A stretch of DNA of 32,244 nucleotides, taken from positions 1 to 32,244 of the forward strand of contig JACRDC010000089.1 in NCBI GenBank assembly GCA_016218705.1, read 5' to 3'. Below are positions 9,923-29,702 of the stretch, one piece after another; position 1 is the first letter of the stretch; every line of letters begins with the position of its first letter. This stretch comes from Desulfarculus sp. GTDB lineage: Bacteria > Desulfobacterota > Desulfarculia > Desulfarculales > Desulfarculaceae. The notes under the pieces were generated by a model. The model did not search any database. It saw only the letters and a list, made by a program, of their open reading frames with translations, and was not told the DNA's origin. The translations under genes and the position numbers were made by a program.

Positions 9923-10885
9923 CTAGAACCCGAAGGTGAATTGCAGGCCCATGACCCACTCGTTGCCGGCCACGGCGCCCAGGTCGGGCATGTCGGTGTA
10001 GTAGTAGCTGACCTCGGGTTGCAGGCCCAGCTTCTCGCTTAGCTGGTAGGGCACGGCCACGTAGGCGGCCCAGCGGCTGTAACGGCCGGTGTTGGCGTAG
10101 CCGCTGTTGTTGTCGGTGAGCGACATGGCGGGCCGGGGCGCGTTGGCCACCTGCCAGGCCGAGGACTCGTTGCCCACGGCGGCCTGGGAGCGTTGCAGGC
10201 CGCCGCCCACGGTCACGCCCAGGGCGCGGGCCGGGTTCCACTTGAGGGCCAGGAAGCCGCCCTGGCCGTCTTCTTCCTGGATGCGTCCGTCGGCGCCGAA
10301 CAGGGGGCCACCGGCCTGCAGCCAGGGGGCGTTGTCCGGGGGGCCCTGGCCAGCGGCGCGGCCGGCGGTGGGCCGGGAGGGCGGGTCGGCGCCCAGACCG
10401 CTGGCCGAGAAGGCCAGGGGCAGGTTACGGGTACCGCGGCCCTGCGTGGGGGCGGCGTGGGAAGTCTGGGTATCCAGCCAGGGAGGCGTCACCGGCGGCG
10501 CCGCCGAGCCCGACTTGAACTCAAAGGCCGGGTCGGGCAGGGGCACGCTGGCGTTGAGGTCGCTACGGCTCAAGAGGGCCGAGGCGGGCTCGGCCTCGGC
10601 GGCCGAGGCCGCCAACTGCTTGGCCGGGGCCTGGGCCTTGGCCGGCGCGGCCTGGCCGCCCTCCAGGCGGGCCATCTCCAAGAAGACCTCGGGCATGCCG
10701 GCGGGCAGGATGCCCTGGGGCTGCCAGCGCGGGTTTTCTTGATTCAAGGCCAGCAGGAGCCCCTCGGGCAGGCGCTCGCTGGGCAGCAAGGGGTCCTCGG
10801 GTGGCAGGACGCCCAAGGCCCAGGCCGGCGAGGCCATGCAGACCCCCACGGCCAAGGCCGTGATAAACAAGAATATTCTGCGCAT
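9923..10885 (-). CDS. Probable outer-membrane beta-barrel protein
   Basis: A 320-residue exported protein. The chosen ATG (10885) follows GGGAGAAG on the minus strand and gives a signal peptide MRRIFLFITALAVGVCMA ending in SPAWA. Residues about 20-190 are Pro/Ala-rich and look disordered. The final 110 residues alternate as amphipathic strands with Gly and aromatic residues (GGFLALKWNPARALGVTVGG, LQPEVSYYYTD) and end EWVMGLQFTFGF. The terminal Phe is the usual signal for BAM-dependent assembly. Four or more C-terminal strands are visible, fewer than a complete barrel, so it may oligomerise or be divergent. No specific family was recognised. Confidence 0.65.
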   Translation of the reverse strand: MRRIFLFITALAVGVCMASPAWALGVLPPEDPLLPSERLPEGLLLALNQENPRWQPQGILPAGMPEVFLEMARLEGGQAAPAKAQAPAKQLAASAAEAEPASALLSRSDLNASVPLPDPAFEFKSGSAAPPVTPPWLDTQTSHAAPTQGRGTRNLPLAFSASGLGADPPSRPTAGRAAGQGPPDNAPWLQAGGPLFGADGRIQEEDGQGGFLALKWNPARALGVTVGGGLQRSQAAVGNESSAWQVANAPRPAMSLTDNNSGYANTGRYSRWAAYVAVPYQLSEKLGLQPEVSYYYTDMPDLGAVAGNEWVMGLQFTFGF

Positions 10886-10941
10886 GATCCAGCTTCTCCC
10901 GCCAGAGTATGTGCATGCGAACACCCCGGCCTTATTACCAT

Positions 10942-10970
10942 ACTATAAATTCTGGGTATTTAGCCATAAA
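10942..10970 (-). promoter_or_regulatory. Promoter candidate for the outer-membrane protein gene
   Basis: On the minus strand, TTTATG (10970-10965) and TATAGT (10947-10942) are separated by 17 bases. The -10 hexamer matches consensus at five of six positions. The pair lies in the only AT-rich stretch upstream of the signal-peptide start codon. Confidence 0.4.
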
Positions 10971-11003
10971 ATTATGGCTTCCGCCCCCGGGGGCGGCCAT
11001 TCT

Positions 11004-11156
11004 GGTATAAACTGCCGGCAAGGCAAGTGGCAATCAAAGCCATCCATGGCTTTGATTGCCCACCGGCCGGGCAAAATAGTGTTTTTGCCCGGCCTCCCGG
11101 GCGCTTGCGCGGCCGGTGGGCCATCCATGGCCCGCATGGCAAGTGGCGATCAAACC
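11004..11156. repeat. Folded intergenic element, family B copy 1
   Basis: It contains a perfect 14-base hairpin GCAATCAAAGCCAT / ATGGCTTTGATTGC (11030-11059, CC loop). A nested GC-rich fold follows (CCCACCGGCC ... GGCCGGTGGG enclosing GGGCAAAA ... TTTTGCCC), then GGGCCATCCATGGCCC (11118-11133) and CATGGCAAGTGGCGATCAAAC. The blocks GGTATAAAC, GCAATCAAAGCCATCCATGG and CCATCCATGGCCCGCATG recur at 29757-29860. It lies upstream of yedF and ends about 50 bases before its start. Confidence 0.75.
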
Positions 11157-11204
11157 TCGCGCTTGACCGCCGCTGGCCATCCAAACCATCAGCGGGAGGA
11201 AAAC

Positions 11205-11798
11205 ATGCTGGATTGTCGAGGATTGGCCTGTCCCCAGCCGGTGATAAAGGCCAAGGAACTCCTGGAAGCCCAGGCCCCCCAGGAGGCTCGGATATTGGTG
11301 GACAACCAGGCCGCCAGCCAGAACGTCAGCCGTTTCTTGAACAGCCAGGGCTACCAGGTCATGGTGACGCCCCAGGGCGGCGACTTTCTGCTGACCGCCC
11401 AGCGCGACCAAAGCCTGCCGGTGCAAGAGGCGCCGGCGGCCCAGGCGGCCTGCGCCGGACCCGAGCGGGTGCTGGTCTTCGTCCGCTCCGACACCCTGGG
11501 CCGGGGCGACGAGGCCCTGGGCGCCGGCCTGATGAAGAACTTCCTGCTCACCCTCAAGGAGATGGGGCCGGCCCTGTGGCGCCTGGTCTTTGTCAACGCC
11601 GGGGTGAGGCTGTGCTGCCAGGGCTCCCAATCCCTGCCGGCCTTGCGGGAGCTGGAGCAGGGCGGCGTGAGCATCCTGGTCTGCGGCACCTGCCTTAACC
11701 ACTACGGGCTCTTGGAGCAGAAAGAGGTGGGCGAGACCACCAACATGCTGGACATCGTCACCAGCATGCAGGTGGCCGGCAAGGTCCTCACCATCTAG
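11205..11798 (+). CDS. yedF: YedF: TusA-like plus DsrE-like selenium metabolism protein
   Basis: A 197-residue two-domain protein. Residues 1-70 are a TusA/SirA-like sulfur-carrier domain with the CPxP motif (LACPQPV, Cys9) and an extra Cys4. Residues about 85-197 are DsrE/F-like, with LVFVRSDTLGRGDEALG and the cysteine pair in CGTCLNHYGL. This fusion is the family called YedF, which is found with selenophosphate-utilising organisms and is thought to act in selenium trafficking; its biochemical role is not firmly settled. The ATG follows GGGAGGA at 11194-11200. The structured repeat ends shortly upstream. A selenoprotein gene at 29988 in the same window fits a selenium-using host. Confidence 0.88.
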   Translation: MLDCRGLACPQPVIKAKELLEAQAPQEARILVDNQAASQNVSRFLNSQGYQVMVTPQGGDFLLTAQRDQSLPVQEAPAAQAACAGPERVLVFVRSDTLGRGDEALGAGLMKNFLLTLKEMGPALWRLVFVNAGVRLCCQGSQSLPALRELEQGGVSILVCGTCLNHYGLLEQKEVGETTNMLDIVTSMQVAGKVLTI

Positions 11799-15546: not shown

Positions 15547-15813
15547 GGCTGCCTCCCAGGGGGTATTGGCCGGTCCCGGCGCCGGCCCCTCATGCTAAGA
15601 CATGGCGCGGGTGCTTGTCACCGGCCAAGGTGATTGCCCACGGCGCGCGCGCTATCTGCTAGCATATGAGTAGAGTCTCGCAACCCATGTTCACCAGCAA
15701 ATTCGCGGGCCGGGTTTCCCCGGCCGGACCCAGGCCAGGGCCGGCCCAGGCAGGCCCGTCCCCAAGCGGTCAATTGTCCACACCCCCACCCTTGGGCGCG
15801 AAAGGAGGCGGTC

Positions 15814-16116
15814 ATGGCGGTTAAGGTCCTCATAACCCGCCGCTGCCAGGAGGGCACCATGCTGGATGTGCTCCTGGTGCTCAGCGAGTTGCGTTCCCTG
15901 GCCGTGGCCCAGCCCGGCTACATCACCGGCGAGACCCTCTACGGCCTGGAGGACCCCGGCAAGCTCTTGGTGATTAGCACCTGGGAGGACCTGCCCTCCT
16001 GGCAGGCCTGGCGCGACCACGCCGCCCGCCGCGAGGTGGAGGCCAAGGCCGAGCGCTACCTGTGGGGACCGGCCAGCTACGACACCTTTCGCTTCGGGGC
16101 CTGGCAGGAGCCCTGA
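15814..16116 (+). CDS. Antibiotic biosynthesis monooxygenase (ABM) domain protein
   Basis: A 100-residue ferredoxin-like-fold protein. The core VLITRRCQEG... LRSLAVAQPGYITGETLYGL... LLVISTWEDLPSWQAWRDHAAR is the ABM/heme-degrading monooxygenase pattern. Members range from quinol monooxygenases to heme-degrading IsdG-type enzymes, and many have no known role. AAAGGAGGCGGTC gives a strong start. It is a single-domain protein, with the GGDEF fusion gene 194 bases downstream. Confidence 0.8.
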   Translation: MAVKVLITRRCQEGTMLDVLLVLSELRSLAVAQPGYITGETLYGLEDPGKLLVISTWEDLPSWQAWRDHAARREVEAKAERYLWGPASYDTFRFGAWQEP

Positions 16117-16270
16117 CCGGGCCAAGCCGGGCCGCGAGCCGCGGTGCGCATAACCGGGCCGGCTATGGCCTTTCCCCTGGCCGGCCTTGTTGGCCGCCGG
16201 TTTGGCCACCCGTAGCATGCGGGGGGCTTGCATCCGGTTACGCCGCGATTAATTTTTATAAAATACATGG

Positions 16271-16284
16271 GAATGATAATTATG
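16271..16284 (+). promoter_or_regulatory. AT-rich Fur-box-like motif upstream of the ferritin-like/GGDEF gene
   Basis: GAATGATAATTATG sits in an isolated AT-rich stretch (16247-16285) 27 bases before the ATG at 16311. It loosely resembles the repeated GATAAT hexamers of Fur sites. It could equally be part of the promoter (GATAAT as a -10 hexamer). The match is partial, and the iron link comes only from the downstream ferritin-like domain. Confidence 0.25.
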
Positions 16285-16310
16285 TAAGCCACGGGGCGTA
16301 AGGGGGGTCC

Positions 16311-17387
16311 ATGTCTGAAGAGGTGATGACCGCCATCATCCGTAAATGCCTACAGATTGACTCGCTGGCCGCCGAGATGTACCGCTGCCTGTCCGAAGGT
16401 TTCGCCGGGGGCGAGTTGGCCGGCTTCTGGCGGCAGATGGCCCGGGAGGAACGGGAGCACGTGGAGTTCTGGCAGAGGCTTTTGGTCTTGGCCCAGCAGG
16501 GGCTGATTCCCCAGGTCTTCGAGGAACCCTACCAGGTGGCGCAGGAGTTGGAGGAAGTCGAGGCGCGGGTGCGGCTTCTGGAGAAGCAGTGCCTGGAGCC
16601 GACCCAGATCAACCTGGCCTTCGTGGTGGCCTATCGTCTGGAGTTCTACCTGCTGCACCCGGCCTTCGCGGCCCTGTTCCACTACGCAGCCAGCCTGGGG
16701 CGGATCAACGGGGTAAATTCCCCCCTGGAGACCTACGAGGGCCATATCTACCAATTCCTGGAGGCTTTGGGCCGCTGGGGACGCGGCAGCCCGGAGTTGG
16801 AGCTGGCCGGCGAGGTGCTGGTGCGTCTGTGGCGGGAGAACAAGCTCCTGGCCCAGCAGAGCACCACCGATCAACTGACCCAGGTGCTCAACCGGCGCGG
16901 GTTTTTCAGGGTGGTGCAGCCCCTGTTGCACCTGGCCCAGCGCCACGGCGACCAGGTGGGAGTGCTGATGGCCGACCTGGACGGCTTCAAGGAGGTCAAC
17001 GACCAGGGTGGTCATCAGGCGGGCGACCTGTTGCTGCGCCAGGTGGCCGCGGTGATCGGCCAGGGAGTGCGTTCCTCGGACATCGTGGGGCGCTACGGCG
17101 GCGACGAGTTCATTATCTACCTGGGTCCCGTGGACCAGGAGGGCCTGACCAGGGTGGCCGAGAAGCTGCGCCTGGCCGTGCGGAGCGCGCCCTGGGAGGG
17201 CCCGGTGGTGACCCTGAGCCTGGGCGGCGCACTGGGTCCGGTGCGGGGCGAGGTGGGCCAGGCCCTGCACGGCATCATCCAACTGGCCGACCAGCGGTTG
17301 TTGGCGGCCAAGCGCGCCGGCCGCAACCAGGCCCTGACCCAGGAAAGCCCGCTCCTGCCCCCCCGCCAGGCCGGCGAGATCTGGTAG
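16311..17387 (+). CDS. Diguanylate cyclase with N-terminal ferritin-like domain
   Basis: A 358-residue soluble protein. Residues 1-155 form a four-helix, rubrerythrin/ferritin-like region. Candidate metal ligands are E22 (LAAEMYRCL), E47 and H50 (EEREHVEFW), E111 and H116 (YRLEFYLLH), and E143/H145 (YEGHIYQF). Residues about 185-345 are a GGDEF domain with an intact active site (RYGGDEF, 263-267) and an I-site RxxD (RSSD, 254-257) five residues before it, so it should make c-di-GMP with product inhibition. The architecture suggests a di-iron or oxygen/peroxide sensor controlling c-di-GMP. AAGGGGGGTCC precedes the ATG. The gene at 17434 follows by 46 bases and may be co-transcribed. Confidence 0.85.
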   Translation: MSEEVMTAIIRKCLQIDSLAAEMYRCLSEGFAGGELAGFWRQMAREEREHVEFWQRLLVLAQQGLIPQVFEEPYQVAQELEEVEARVRLLEKQCLEPTQINLAFVVAYRLEFYLLHPAFAALFHYAASLGRINGVNSPLETYEGHIYQFLEALGRWGRGSPELELAGEVLVRLWRENKLLAQQSTTDQLTQVLNRRGFFRVVQPLLHLAQRHGDQVGVLMADLDGFKEVNDQGGHQAGDLLLRQVAAVIGQGVRSSDIVGRYGGDEFIIYLGPVDQEGLTRVAEKLRLAVRSAPWEGPVVTLSLGGALGPVRGEVGQALHGIIQLADQRLLAAKRAGRNQALTQESPLLPPRQAGEIW

Positions 17388-17433
17388 CGGCCGCCCGGCG
17401 GCCAAGGCATCAAAGCCAATAGAGGAGGCAGCC

Positions 17434-17856
17434 ATGGAAGACAGGCGCAACCCGCACCTCAAGGTGCAGGAGATGGCCCAGTGCTACGCCAACCGCAACC
17501 CCCTGGAGGCCATGTCCGGCCTGGCCGGCGAGGCCGACCAGGAGGAGGCGGCCATCAAGTGGCTGGCCCTGGCGGTGCTGCACGCCGTGGGAGCCGGGGC
17601 CAAAAAGATCGAGCTGACCCTGGACGCCCAGGGCCGGGCCGTGGTCACGGCCAAATACCGCGAGGCCACCCTGCCCTCGCCGGGGCCGGCGGTGGGGGCA
17701 CGGGTCCTGGCCATGGTCGGGGAAATACTGCACCTGGAGGGCGGCACCGGCCAGGGGCTGTTGGCCCTGGGCCTGGCCGGCGACAACCTGGACATCAAGG
17801 TCAAGCTGGAGGACGAGGACGGCGGACGCCAGCTCAGCCTGAAGTTCGGGGAGTAG
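17434..17856 (+). CDS. Conserved-looking hypothetical protein
   Basis: A 140-residue protein without signal peptide or membrane segment. It begins with a hydrophilic segment holding a Cys (VQEMAQCYANRNPLEAMSGL). Then comes a helical stretch (EEAAIKWLALAVLHAVGAGAKKIELTLD) and alternating hydrophobic strands ending in LSLKF. I recognise no family. GAGGAGGCAGCC gives a strong start. It lies 46 bases after the GGDEF gene on the same strand and may be its partner. Confidence 0.7.
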   Translation: MEDRRNPHLKVQEMAQCYANRNPLEAMSGLAGEADQEEAAIKWLALAVLHAVGAGAKKIELTLDAQGRAVVTAKYREATLPSPGPAVGARVLAMVGEILHLEGGTGQGLLALGLAGDNLDIKVKLEDEDGGRQLSLKFGE

Positions 17857-17952
17857 GCCGCGTGCCGCGGCGGGCAAAACGGGTCGGGCTCGGCTGCCGT
17901 CCAAGCGGACGTTGACGGCTCCCGGCGAAGCCAGTCGGATTATGGGAGGCCC

Positions 17953-22855: not shown

Positions 22856-24067
22856 CTACTTCACGTCGCCGGTGGCGGCGCCGTGCAGCTTGATCTCCAC
22901 CTTCTCCTCCAGGGACTGATAGTAGGCCTGGAGGATCTTCACCACCTCGGGACGGGAGAACTCGGCCGGCAGGTCGCCACCCTCGCTCAGGGTCTTGCGG
23001 ACCATGGTCCCGGAGAGCAGCAGGCGGTCTTCCTTGCCGTGGGGGCAGGTGCGCAGAGAGGCCATGCCGCCGCACTTGTAGCAGTGGAAGGTCCAGTCAA
23101 TGTTCAGGTTCTTGATGACCAGGCTGCCCGCGGGGATCTCGAGGAAGATCTTCTGGGCGTCGAAGGGGCCGTAGTAGTCGCCCACGCCGGCGTGGTCGCG
23201 GCCCACGATCAGGTGGGAGCAGCCGTAGTTCTGACGGAACACCGCGTGCAGCAGGGCCTCGCGCGGACCGCCGTAACGCATCTCCATGGGGTAGCCCTTG
23301 GTGACGATGGTGTTCTTCACGAAGTAGTTGTCCACCAGGGCGTTGATGGCGTTGACGCGCACGTCGGCGGGGATGTCGCCGGCCTTCAGCTTGCCCAGGA
23401 TCTGGTGGATGATGACACCGTCCATGACCTCGACGGCGATCTTGCACAGGAACTCATGGGAGCGGTGCAGGGGGTTACGGGTCTGGAAGGCGGCGATGCG
23501 GGTCCAGCCGGCCTTCTCGAAGATGGCGCGGGTCTCGGCCGGGGTGGCGTAGATGCCCTTGTACTCGTCGGGGAAGCCGCCCTCGCTCACGACCTTGACC
23601 GGGCCGGCGATGTTGAACTTCTTCTGCTCGTAGACCTTCTGTACGCCAGGGTGCTCCTTGTCGTCGGTGCGGAACACGTTCTTGGCCTCGAAGACCTTGT
23701 CAATCTCGTACTTCTCGGTCACGTCCATGGTGGCGATCAGGCCACCGAACTCATCGCAGTACAGGGCCAGCTTGTCGCCCACGTTGACGCCGTCCTCGTC
23801 ACCGGCCGAGCAGGTGATCGGGATGGGCCAGAACACGCCATTGGCCATCTTCATCTCGGCGCAGACGCCCTTCCAGTCCGCCTGGCCCATGAAGCCGCTC
23901 AGGGGAGTGAAGGCGCCGATGCCCATCATGAAGCAGTCGCAGGCCTCGCGCGTGGTGATCTCAAGCTTCTTGTAGCCGGCGGCGGCCTTTTTTTCGGCCT
24001 CGAGAGCGGCGCCAGTCAGCAGCAGGGGCTTTAAAGCGCCTCCACCATGGGGGGGAACCAATGCCAT
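22856..24067 (-). CDS. sat: Sulfate adenylyltransferase (ATP sulfurylase)
   Basis: A 403-residue ATP sulfurylase that activates sulfate to adenosine phosphosulfate, the first step of dissimilatory sulfate reduction (or the reverse in sulfur oxidation). Motifs include [11 protein letters not shown] (195-205), [17 protein letters not shown] (289 onward), and a zinc-binding Cys set in the C-terminal region (C329, C332, C341 with H343 in FHCYKCGGM... [10 protein letters not shown]), as in the homo-oligomeric bacterial/archaeal type. [13 protein letters not shown] closes the active site. AAGGAGGATTTCA precedes the ATG. aprAB, qmo and pyrophosphatase genes are not in the window, so sat is a single-gene unit with its own terminator. 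Confidence 0.96.
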
Positions 24068-27717: not shown

Positions 27718-28698
27718 ATGTCCCTGACCAAGATATTCGAGCAGTTCCCCGACCGCCGCTACATCATGTTCGGCGGCAAGGGCGGCCTGGGCAAGACCAC
27801 CTTCTCGGCCGCCGCCGCCTATTACCTGGCCAAACAGGGCAAGAAGGTACTGGTCTTCTCGGTGGACCCCCAGGCCTCCCTCTCCGACATCTTCAAGCGC
27901 AACATCTTCGGCCAAGGCCCCACCGAGATCATGCCCAACCTCTACGCCCAGGAGATAGACGCCGACCACCGCATCAAGGAGTATCAGCAGGAGATACGCC
28001 AGAAGATCCTGGACATGTACGGCATGGACCAGATCCCCGAGGAGATCGAGAGCTACATCCAGGCCGCCGCCGCCGAGCCGGCCATGGAGGAGAGCGCCAT
28101 CTTCGACGAGGTGGTGGACATCGTGGTCAAGGGCGGCTACGACTACTACATCTACGACCTGGTGCCCCTGGGCCACGCCCTGTACTACCTGTCCATGGCC
28201 TCGGTCTACGACGCCTGGATCGGCAAGATCACGGGCCTCAGGCAGCAGATGCATGAGTACGACCAGGTGGCGGCGGTGATGCGCCGCGACAAGGAGCTGG
28301 ACGAGGACGCCATATTGAACGAGCTGCTCTACATCAAGGACCGCATCAACAAGTCCAGCAGCATCCTCACCGACAAGCAAAAAACCGCCTTCTTCTTCGT
28401 GGTCACCCCCGAGGAGATGATAATCCAGGATACCCAGAAGGCCGCCGAGCTGTTCGCCAAGTTCGACGTGCCCCTTAGCGGCTACATCGTCAACCGGGTG
28501 CTGCCCGCCGAGCTTAAAAACCAGCACATCCCCGAGTACCTGAAGAACCGCTTCGTCATGCAGGAAAAATATCTCCAGGTCATCCAGGGCACCTTCGGCA
28601 ACCAGGTCCTGTCCTATGTCCCCGAGATGGAACGGGACGTGACCGGCCTGGCCATGATCGAGAAGATGGCCGCGGCCATGTTCGGCCAACCAGCCTGA
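27718..28698 (+). CDS. ArsA/Get3-type ATPase, subunit with altered switch II
   Basis: A 326-residue P-loop ATPase of the deviant Walker A (KGGxGKT) class: GGKGGLGKTT at residues 19-28 with the signature Lys21. Switch I reads SVDPQASLSD (48-57) and keeps the catalytic-position Asp50. Switch II, normally DTAPTGH, reads YDLVPLGH (146-153), so the conserved Thr and the usual TAPT core are lost. There are no cysteines at all, ruling out ArsA-like thiol metal sites and the Get3 CxxC zinc clasp. AAGGAAGGA precedes the ATG. The following gene is a clear paralogue of identical length. Likely a partner in a heterodimer tied to the upstream CstA permease (inference). Confidence 0.88.
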   Translation: MSLTKIFEQFPDRRYIMFGGKGGLGKTTFSAAAAYYLAKQGKKVLVFSVDPQASLSDIFKRNIFGQGPTEIMPNLYAQEIDADHRIKEYQQEIRQKILDMYGMDQIPEEIESYIQAAAAEPAMEESAIFDEVVDIVVKGGYDYYIYDLVPLGHALYYLSMASVYDAWIGKITGLRQQMHEYDQVAAVMRRDKELDEDAILNELLYIKDRINKSSSILTDKQKTAFFFVVTPEEMIIQDTQKAAELFAKFDVPLSGYIVNRVLPAELKNQHIPEYLKNRFVMQEKYLQVIQGTFGNQVLSYVPEMERDVTGLAMIEKMAAAMFGQPA

Positions 28699-28721: not shown

Positions 28722-29702
28722 ATGAATGAAGTTACCGTCAGCATGAAAAAGTTCATGGAGGATAATTCCCGCCTGAAGTACATCTTCTTCGGCGGCAAGG
28801 GCGGGGTGGGCAAGACGGTCATGGCCGCCGCGTCCGCCCTGTGGTCGGCCCGCCAGGGCCGGCGCACCCTGCTGGCCTCCACCAACCCCGTGCACAGCCT
28901 AAGCAACCTCTTCGGCCAGAACGTCCTGGGCCAGGCGGTGACGGTCTGCAACCAGGAGAACTGCTTCGCCCTGGAGATTGACACCAAGGAGACCATCGAG
29001 CGCTCCAAGAAGGAAATACGCGAGAAGATCAACTGGTTCCTCAAGTTCGCCGACATCACCACCAACGCCGAGGAGTTCATCGAGAGCGCCACCATGAACC
29101 CGGCCTTCGAGGAGTCGGCCATGTTCGAGAACATGATGGACCTCATGTTCAAGGACGAGTACGACTTCTACGTCTTCGACACCGCGCCCACGGCCAACGC
29201 CCGGCGCCTGTTGGGCATGAGCAAGGTCTACTCGCTGTGGGTGGAGAAGATGCTCAAAAGCCGCGACGAGGCCAAGTCCCTGCGCGAGATGCTCTCCTTC
29301 AGCAAGAAGGACGAGCAGGACCCGCTCATGGACTACCTGCTCAACTTCAAGGACCGCATGGCCCACGTCAAGGAGCTCCTTACCGACCCGGCGCTGACCG
29401 CCTTCTTCTTCGTCACCCTGCCCGAGGCCCTGCCCATCGCGGTCATCACCCGCTTCATGAACTGGTTCCACGAGTTCGGCATCCCGGTGGGCGGGGTGGT
29501 GGTCAACGGCCTGATCCAGCGGGACCAGGTGGCCAGCGACGCCGCCGAGTTCGTGCAGAACCGCATGGCCATGCAGGCCGAGCACATGGAGACCATCTGG
29601 AAGGCCTTTGACGGCGACGTGCGCGCCCTGGTGCCCCTGTTCGAAACCGAGGTCAAGGGCGACGCCATGCTCACCCGCCTGATGGAAAAGGTCATGGCCT
29701 AG
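28722..29702 (+). CDS. ArsA/Get3-type ATPase, subunit with altered switch I
   Basis: A 326-residue paralogue of the preceding protein. The P-loop is GGKGGVGKTV (24-33) with signature Lys26. Switch II is nearly canonical, FDTAPTANARRLL (152-164), though GH is replaced by AN. Switch I reads STNPVHSLSN (53-62): the Asp that is catalytic in Get3/ArsA is Asn55. Cys76 and Cys81 form an unusual Cx4C pair not placed like ArsA or Get3 cysteines. Both copies share PA(M/F)EESA(I/M)F and a C-terminal MQ-x-K/E-x-L/M block. AAAGGGGG precedes the ATG, 23 bases after the previous stop. It is the last gene of the cstA set. Confidence 0.88.
   Translation: MNEVTVSMKKFMEDNSRLKYIFFGGKGGVGKTVMAAASALWSARQGRRTLLASTNPVHSLSNLFGQNVLGQAVTVCNQENCFALEIDTKETIERSKKEIREKINWFLKFADITTNAEEFIESATMNPAFEESAMFENMMDLMFKDEYDFYVFDTAPTANARRLLGMSKVYSLWVEKMLKSRDEAKSLREMLSFSKKDEQDPLMDYLLNFKDRMAHVKELLTDPALTAFFFVTLPEALPIAVITRFMNWFHEFGIPVGGVVVNGLIQRDQVASDAAEFVQNRMAMQAEHMETIWKAFDGDVRALVPLFETEVKGDAMLTRLMEKVMA

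Follow-up and report, generated by a model that had tools for sequence, protein, structure and literature searches.

Control of c-di-GMP enzymes by non-heme diiron domains has been described before, and the excerpts of PMC9388753 name only domains of the hemerythrin type in this role. For V. cholerae Bhr-DGC, the same excerpts give the diferrous form as about ten times more active. PG_0686 of Porphyromonas gingivalis is another iron-containing helical-domain protein with cyclase activity, as outlined in part of PMC10101095; it differs from the protein described here in having a non-canonical hemerythrin domain and a PAS domain, and the likeness is one of description. The sole solved member of the family treated here is 3EZU (NP_951600.1, Geobacter sulfurreducens), a 2008 structural-genomics entry for which a figure legend reports an unidentified ligand (UNL). 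It matches our protein over its full length (E 8e-64) and falls in the same family tree. Among CC-licensed PMC papers we found none on GSU0542, which we take to be the locus name of 3EZU, none that pairs 'GGDEF' with 'rubrerythrin domain', and only papers off-topic by title for 'GGDEF' with 'ferritin-like domain' and 'sensor'.

The window analysed here, a stretch of 32,244 nucleotides from Desulfarculus sp., holds a gene that fuses a ferritin-like front half to a GGDEF cyclase. With moderate confidence, we propose that a ferritin-like bundle with a metal centre switches c-di-GMP synthesis by redox or iron status. The protein would then be of a known kind, the diiron-controlled cyclic-dinucleotide enzymes, here with a different scaffold and a predicted site modified by a Tyr. 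By analogy it would work most like Bhr-DGC and is probably metal-dependent, with a ferritin-like scaffold and an unusual Tyr: as described in the excerpts of PMC9388753, Bhr-DGC also has a diiron domain N-terminal of GGDEF and redox-controlled c-di-GMP synthesis, whereas its scaffold is that of a hemerythrin with five His. No hemerythrin model is found among the Pfam matches of the window protein up to E 1. If the proposal is true, the ferritin-like scaffold would provide a second, independent route from iron or oxygen to c-di-GMP in anaerobes, its unusual Tyr would predict a visible colour change on oxidation, and the unexplained structure of 2008 would gain a meaning.

The fusion gene and its cyclase half

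An open reading frame had been called from the letters alone at 16311-17387, and it is confirmed there, with an ATG start and 358 aa. The counts in the following list refer to the 53 rows of the family alignment that carry a GGDEF domain.

16311-17387, + strand: ferritin-like/GGDEF fusion gene, ORF of 358 aa, ATG start (Pfam GGDEF E 3.6e-35)
16311-16790, + strand: ferritin-like sensor domain, residues 1-160, predicted (AlphaFold2 models, VIA-align)
16791-16865, + strand: connecting (signalling) helix, residues 161-185, an unbroken helix in the full-length AlphaFold2 model
16863-17330, + strand: GGDEF diguanylate cyclase domain, residues 185-340 (Pfam E 3.6e-35; VIA-align)
17025-17027, + strand: D239, the Asp that sets canonical c-di-GMP cyclases apart from Hypr enzymes (Ser), in 52 of 53 rows
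17070-17081, + strand: I-site R254-SS-D257, R and D in 53 of 53 rows
17097-17111, + strand: GGDEF signature, residues 263-267, intact from G263 to F267

The sequence-only reading had seen intact GGDEF and RxxD sites, and the alignment and the Pfam match bear it out. VIA-align scores for the GGDEF domain ran from Z 20.9 to 26.3 over 50 rows among the matches listed. D239 lies 26 residues N-terminal of the Asp of the GGDEF motif, the same spacing as in GacA, where, in the excerpts of PMC6456294, the residue equivalent to position 348 (Asp versus Ser/Thr) tells c-di-GMP cyclases from Hypr. A Hypr GGDEF domain (cGAMP synthase) is ruled out by D239, there being no Ser/Thr at this position. With signature, RxxD and D239 all intact, the back half should make c-di-GMP, as far as its residues predict.

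The host genome holds 24 matches to the window protein, 23 of them essentially in the GGDEF half, and a search with the ferritin-like domain alone found no second copy of that domain in this genome; the protein is thus one of many cyclases and the sole one with this front half.

The predicted bundle and its candidate metal site

The ferritin-like domain is barely recognised by Pfam. Rubrerythrin (PF02915) matches weakly at residues 18-90 (E 5.7e-4, 20.7 bits), and against the curated cut-off of 22.8 hmmscan gives 20.7 for the whole protein and 22.7 for the domain alone, with 22.8, over the cut-off, in another listing. AlphaFold2 run on a nine-row alignment predicts a helical bundle (mean pLDDT 88.7, pTM 0.86), and with 29 full-length rows it models the whole protein (mean pLDDT 89.5, pTM 0.73), with helix 161-185 entering the GGDEF domain; the helices of the models are 2-30, 35-62, 73-94, 100-113, 117-133 and 142-156. 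In VIA-align, where helical bundles without kinship can score up to Z 13, the best neighbour was 3ezu (Z 13.4, rmsd 2.8, 140 aligned) and the second TM1526, 1vjx (Z 12.2, rmsd 3.3, 146 aligned), with YciF (Z 11.8) and many ferritins (Z 10.5-11.3) further down; in Foldseek, 3ezu was the sole match under E 0.001. Support for ferritin-like kinship that is independent of VIA-align comes from sequence-profile matches to 1vjx (5e-7) and to the designed diiron proteins DFsc (5e-6) and DF2t (3e-5), in a list that also includes designed helical bundles lacking metal sites, so that the E-values alone are no proof. In addition, profile comparison gave a probability of 98% against a set of six small ferritin-like proteins from the phylum and of under 1% against two rubrerythrins encoded in the same genome.

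The ferritin-like fold is therefore borne out as a prediction, in that AlphaFold2 gives a bundle of ferritin type and the best VIA-align rows are ferritin-like. The earlier limit at residue 155 does not stand, since domain and signalling helix together extend to about residue 185. Rubrerythrin and TM1526-type proteins have the fold and the first half-site in common with the window protein, which differs from them in giving no Pfam match to rubredoxin, in scoring at or below the Pfam cut-off, in having YxxH and not ExxH, and in its fused GGDEF domain. The candidate ligands, counted over 64 family rows, are as follows.

16359-16361, + strand: D17, helix A candidate ligand, which opens D17-x6-Y24; D/E/N in 60 of 64 rows
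16449-16460, + strand: E47-x-x-H50, helix B candidate ligands; E in 43 and H in 60 of 64
16641-16643, + strand: E111, helix C candidate ligand; 61 of 64, and 30 of 32 in rows unselected for E111
16734-16745, + strand: Y142-x-x-H145, helix D candidate ligands; Y in 57 and H in 49 of 64

The first half-site, [DE]x6Y followed by ExxH, is present (D17/Y24, E47/H50). D17 aligns with the helix-1 Glu of DF2t, and E47xxH50 with the ExxH of DF2t, DFsc and 1vjx, residues that we take to be ligands in those proteins. Canonical ferritin-like proteins have a further ExxH in helix D; here that second half-site, E followed by ExxH, is absent, for E111 is in place but is followed by Y142xxH145, and Glu stands at position 142 in one of 64 rows, the degenerate L055. 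Of the 'several Glu/His pairs' read from the letters, there is then one ExxH (E47/H50), joined by one YxxH (Y142/H145). E47, H50, E111, Y142 and H145 are invariant in the nine rows from the whole-domain search, where position 17 is D or E, and all five are kept in 39 of the 64 rows (33 with D/E17 and six with N17).

These residues probably form, to judge from their conservation and alignment, a two-metal pocket in the front half, with D17, E47, H50, E111, Y142 and H145 as candidate ligands. An organic ligand or heme in the bundle in place of a dinuclear metal, its occupancy controlling the cyclase, is a reading we regard as unlikely; H50 and H145 could serve as heme ligands, or a lipid or quinone could occupy a buried pocket. 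The ligand reported for 3EZU and a helix D without a fourth carboxylate speak for it, and in some members the pocket may take up an organic molecule. The alignment of D17-x6-Y24 and E47xxH50 with designed and natural diiron proteins argues against it, as does the near-invariance of E111 in the unselected rows, a residue needless for heme.

The spacing of the candidate ligands fits a dinuclear site, in that D17 to E47 is 30 and E111 to Y142 is 31, and about 30-31 is expected of two ferritin half-sites. On the predicted helix limits, D17, E47 and H50 lie 22-26 Å from the A/B turn along their helices and hence at the same level, so the A/B half of the site appears geometrically sound in the models. 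The other half is in doubt: helix C is interrupted at 114-116 in both AlphaFold2 models (100-113, 117-133), and the next helix has Y142/H145 at or close to its beginning. In a straight canonical bundle these two would thus lie a long way from E111, and the site would close only if 117-141 were an excursion that returns residue 142 to the level of E111.

Under our preferred explanation, the protein would be a soluble single-component sensor, with an N-terminal ferritin-like bundle and a GGDEF output. D17, E47, H50, E111 and H145 would bind a metal centre, most likely of two irons, and Y142 would be a ligand or a second-shell residue. Oxidation by O2 or peroxide, or the loss or gain of iron, would alter the centre; the altered centre would move the C-terminal helix 161-185 and so change the pairing of two GGDEF domains, such that c-di-GMP synthesis tracks redox or iron status, and the product would inhibit back at the RxxD site. 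The metal, its nuclearity, the spatial assembly of the site, the stimulus and the direction of control are what we infer in this scheme. A sub-case with another stimulus, to which we give a low probability, is a sensor of metal occupancy, in which iron or manganese availability acts with no redox chemistry and the cyclase reports metal status and not O2 or peroxide. Ferritin-like sites bind Fe, Mn and Zn, and the variation at position 17 (D 40, E 10, N 10 over the 64 rows) suggests varied affinity within the family; the Fur-like promoter that would favour this sub-case is, however, not supported.

Distribution of the family and joint loss of the candidate ligands

The family is sparse and mostly found in anaerobic Desulfobacterota. 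The ferritin-like domain occurs in three of 60 relatives, own genome counted, and in 15 of 395 genomes of the phylum, six of these being weak matches to other small ferritin-like proteins. Profile searches found it in nine of 277 genomes in the class of a Geobacter-like relative (including L097 and L098, distant single-domain proteins) and in 26 of 311 in the class to which Desulfosarcina alkanivorans belongs. Scanning genome contigs yielded 37 loci, the majority in Desulfobacterota and, by record titles, a few in Lentisphaerae/Victivallis, Nitrospirae, Anammoxibacter, KSB1, Raymondbacteria and Fermentibacter relatives; the scan pattern included E111, and these loci are biased at that position. 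Removal of identical copies left 65 of 103 loci, and with L097 and L098 dropped and 3EZU added the alignment has 64 rows. By inspection, 53 of these have GGDEF, eight have a Cys-rich domain and three are cut by contig ends. The closest relative, L027, matches the window protein at 90% identity.

The Cys-rich partner (CxxC...CPxC) stands in place of GGDEF in L013, L014/L048, L015-L017/L061-L062, L054, L057 and L123. All eight of these rows keep the full ligand set, and no Pfam model scored over its cut-off on the Cys-rich domain in the four rows scanned.

Loss of the ligands was followed on a tree built without the six ligand columns, and the counts rest on this one quick IQ-TREE, drawn with a midpoint root and with weak support at 26 of its 61 inner branches. 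Four clades, with 19.2% of the branch length, have lost E47. All 43 rows that have E47 also have H145, against 6 of the 21 that lack E47. The E47-lost clades contain 4/4 losses of H145, 3/4 of H50, 1/1 of E111 and 3/5 of Y142, combining to 11 of 14, a small number of losses over only four E47-loss lineages. The same clades contain 44 of 263 losses in a set of 36 further conserved columns from the domain and 60 of 331 in 49 GGDEF columns, and no random set of four control columns out of 20,000 reached 11 of 14. The excess grows weaker but persists at 8/11 versus 23/270 without the two clades of altered GGDEF, and at 3/6 versus 16/263 (one-sided Fisher p 0.005) on further omission of L055 and L056, which align uncertainly in helix D. 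An independent-pairs test of these losses had too few pairs to reach significance. E47 is lost alone in L046 and L051-L053.

Since the losses cluster in the E47-lost lineages (11/14 against 44/263), the ligand set appears to decay as a unit, which supports a shared function for E47, H50, Y142 and H145. Co-loss does not by itself show a metal; the same pattern would be expected on losing the pocket of an organic ligand. It also bears on the view that the bundle is a cofactor-free dimerisation or protein-binding module from a ferritin-like ancestor, with the ligands as relics. This view can draw on the 25 of 64 rows in which at least one of the five ligands is absent, and on the several such clades that keep GGEEF (L036, L042, L051), in which the fusion outlives the site. 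We consider it quite improbable for the window protein, which together with 38 other rows holds all five, and because the losses are clustered and not scattered.

The clades that have lost ligands differ in their cyclase halves. In the Desulfosarcina-type clade the sensor site is lost and GGEEF is kept; a natural variant of this type carries N47 and F145. The 3EZU clade has DGDEF as its signature and Gly in place of N230, and in the clade of L018, L019 and L026 the GGDEF signature is gone; both of these also lack part of the sensor site. 3EZU itself has T47, Q111 and Y145, so that part of its ligand set is gone, unlike the window protein, in which both halves are intact. L018, L019 and L026 have the full two-domain length, with sensor ligands and GGDEF signature both decayed, which suggests a non-catalytic receptor or a relic.

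A bolder proposal, speculative and rather doubtful in our estimate, is that these proteins form an undescribed sensor family with a Tyr-modified dinuclear iron site (D/E17, E47, H50, E111, Y142, H145), in which Fe(III)-tyrosinate formed on oxidation would switch the output, GGDEF in one branch and a Cys-rich, zinc-ribbon-like domain in another; the site would have been dismantled stepwise in several lineages, including that of 3EZU. Such dismantling would, if true, explain why the site went unrecognised.

The locus and its neighbours

The stretch upstream of the gene had been called Fur-like in the sequence-only reading.

16246-16290, + strand: AT-rich upstream stretch, with 12 of 19 matches to the Fur box

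The DNA is AT-rich as described, and a Fur box is rejected: 274 of 2000 shuffles of the 45-base stretch score as well, 12 matches are reached at 10 places in the window, and in L027, whose upstream DNA is 94% identical, the core of the stretch is changed.

In the genus mate G001 (contig C125, L134), the region corresponding to window positions 15785-17857 is an empty site with no cyclase gene, where the ABM gene that lies upstream in the window adjoins the downstream one, with 157 bases between the matched stretches. The 97%-complete genome G002 has no homologue of the window gene. Taken together, these point to an accessory gene that is not tied to its neighbours. No neighbour recurs widely as an operon partner across the family loci; where the same upstream genes are seen repeatedly, it is in 7 to 10 loci, almost all belonging to the Desulfosarcina-type clade. 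In that clade (L036, L038, L042-L044, L046, L047, L051-L053), in which E47 is lost and H145 often lost, two upstream genes recur in about ten loci each, and one of these, judging from its start, presumably resembles a penicillin-binding or other membrane protein. Downstream of the window gene, an ORF of about 140 aa (17432-17857, +) has no significant Pfam or NCBIfam match, and its DNA is 71-79% identical in G001, G002, G004 and G005.

The anaerobic context assumed in the sequence-only reading is supported, and an ATP-sulfurylase gene at 22856-24067 of the window points to a sulfate-reducing anaerobe as the host. As regards that reading as a whole, its observation is confirmed and its interpretation is partly supported. 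Elsewhere in the window, the product of a gene at 10836-11798 (+) matches TusA and, weakly, a DsrE-like domain, a single chain with two sulfur-carrier domains, and two ArsA-type ATPase genes adjoin at 27718-28698 and 28722-29702 (+).
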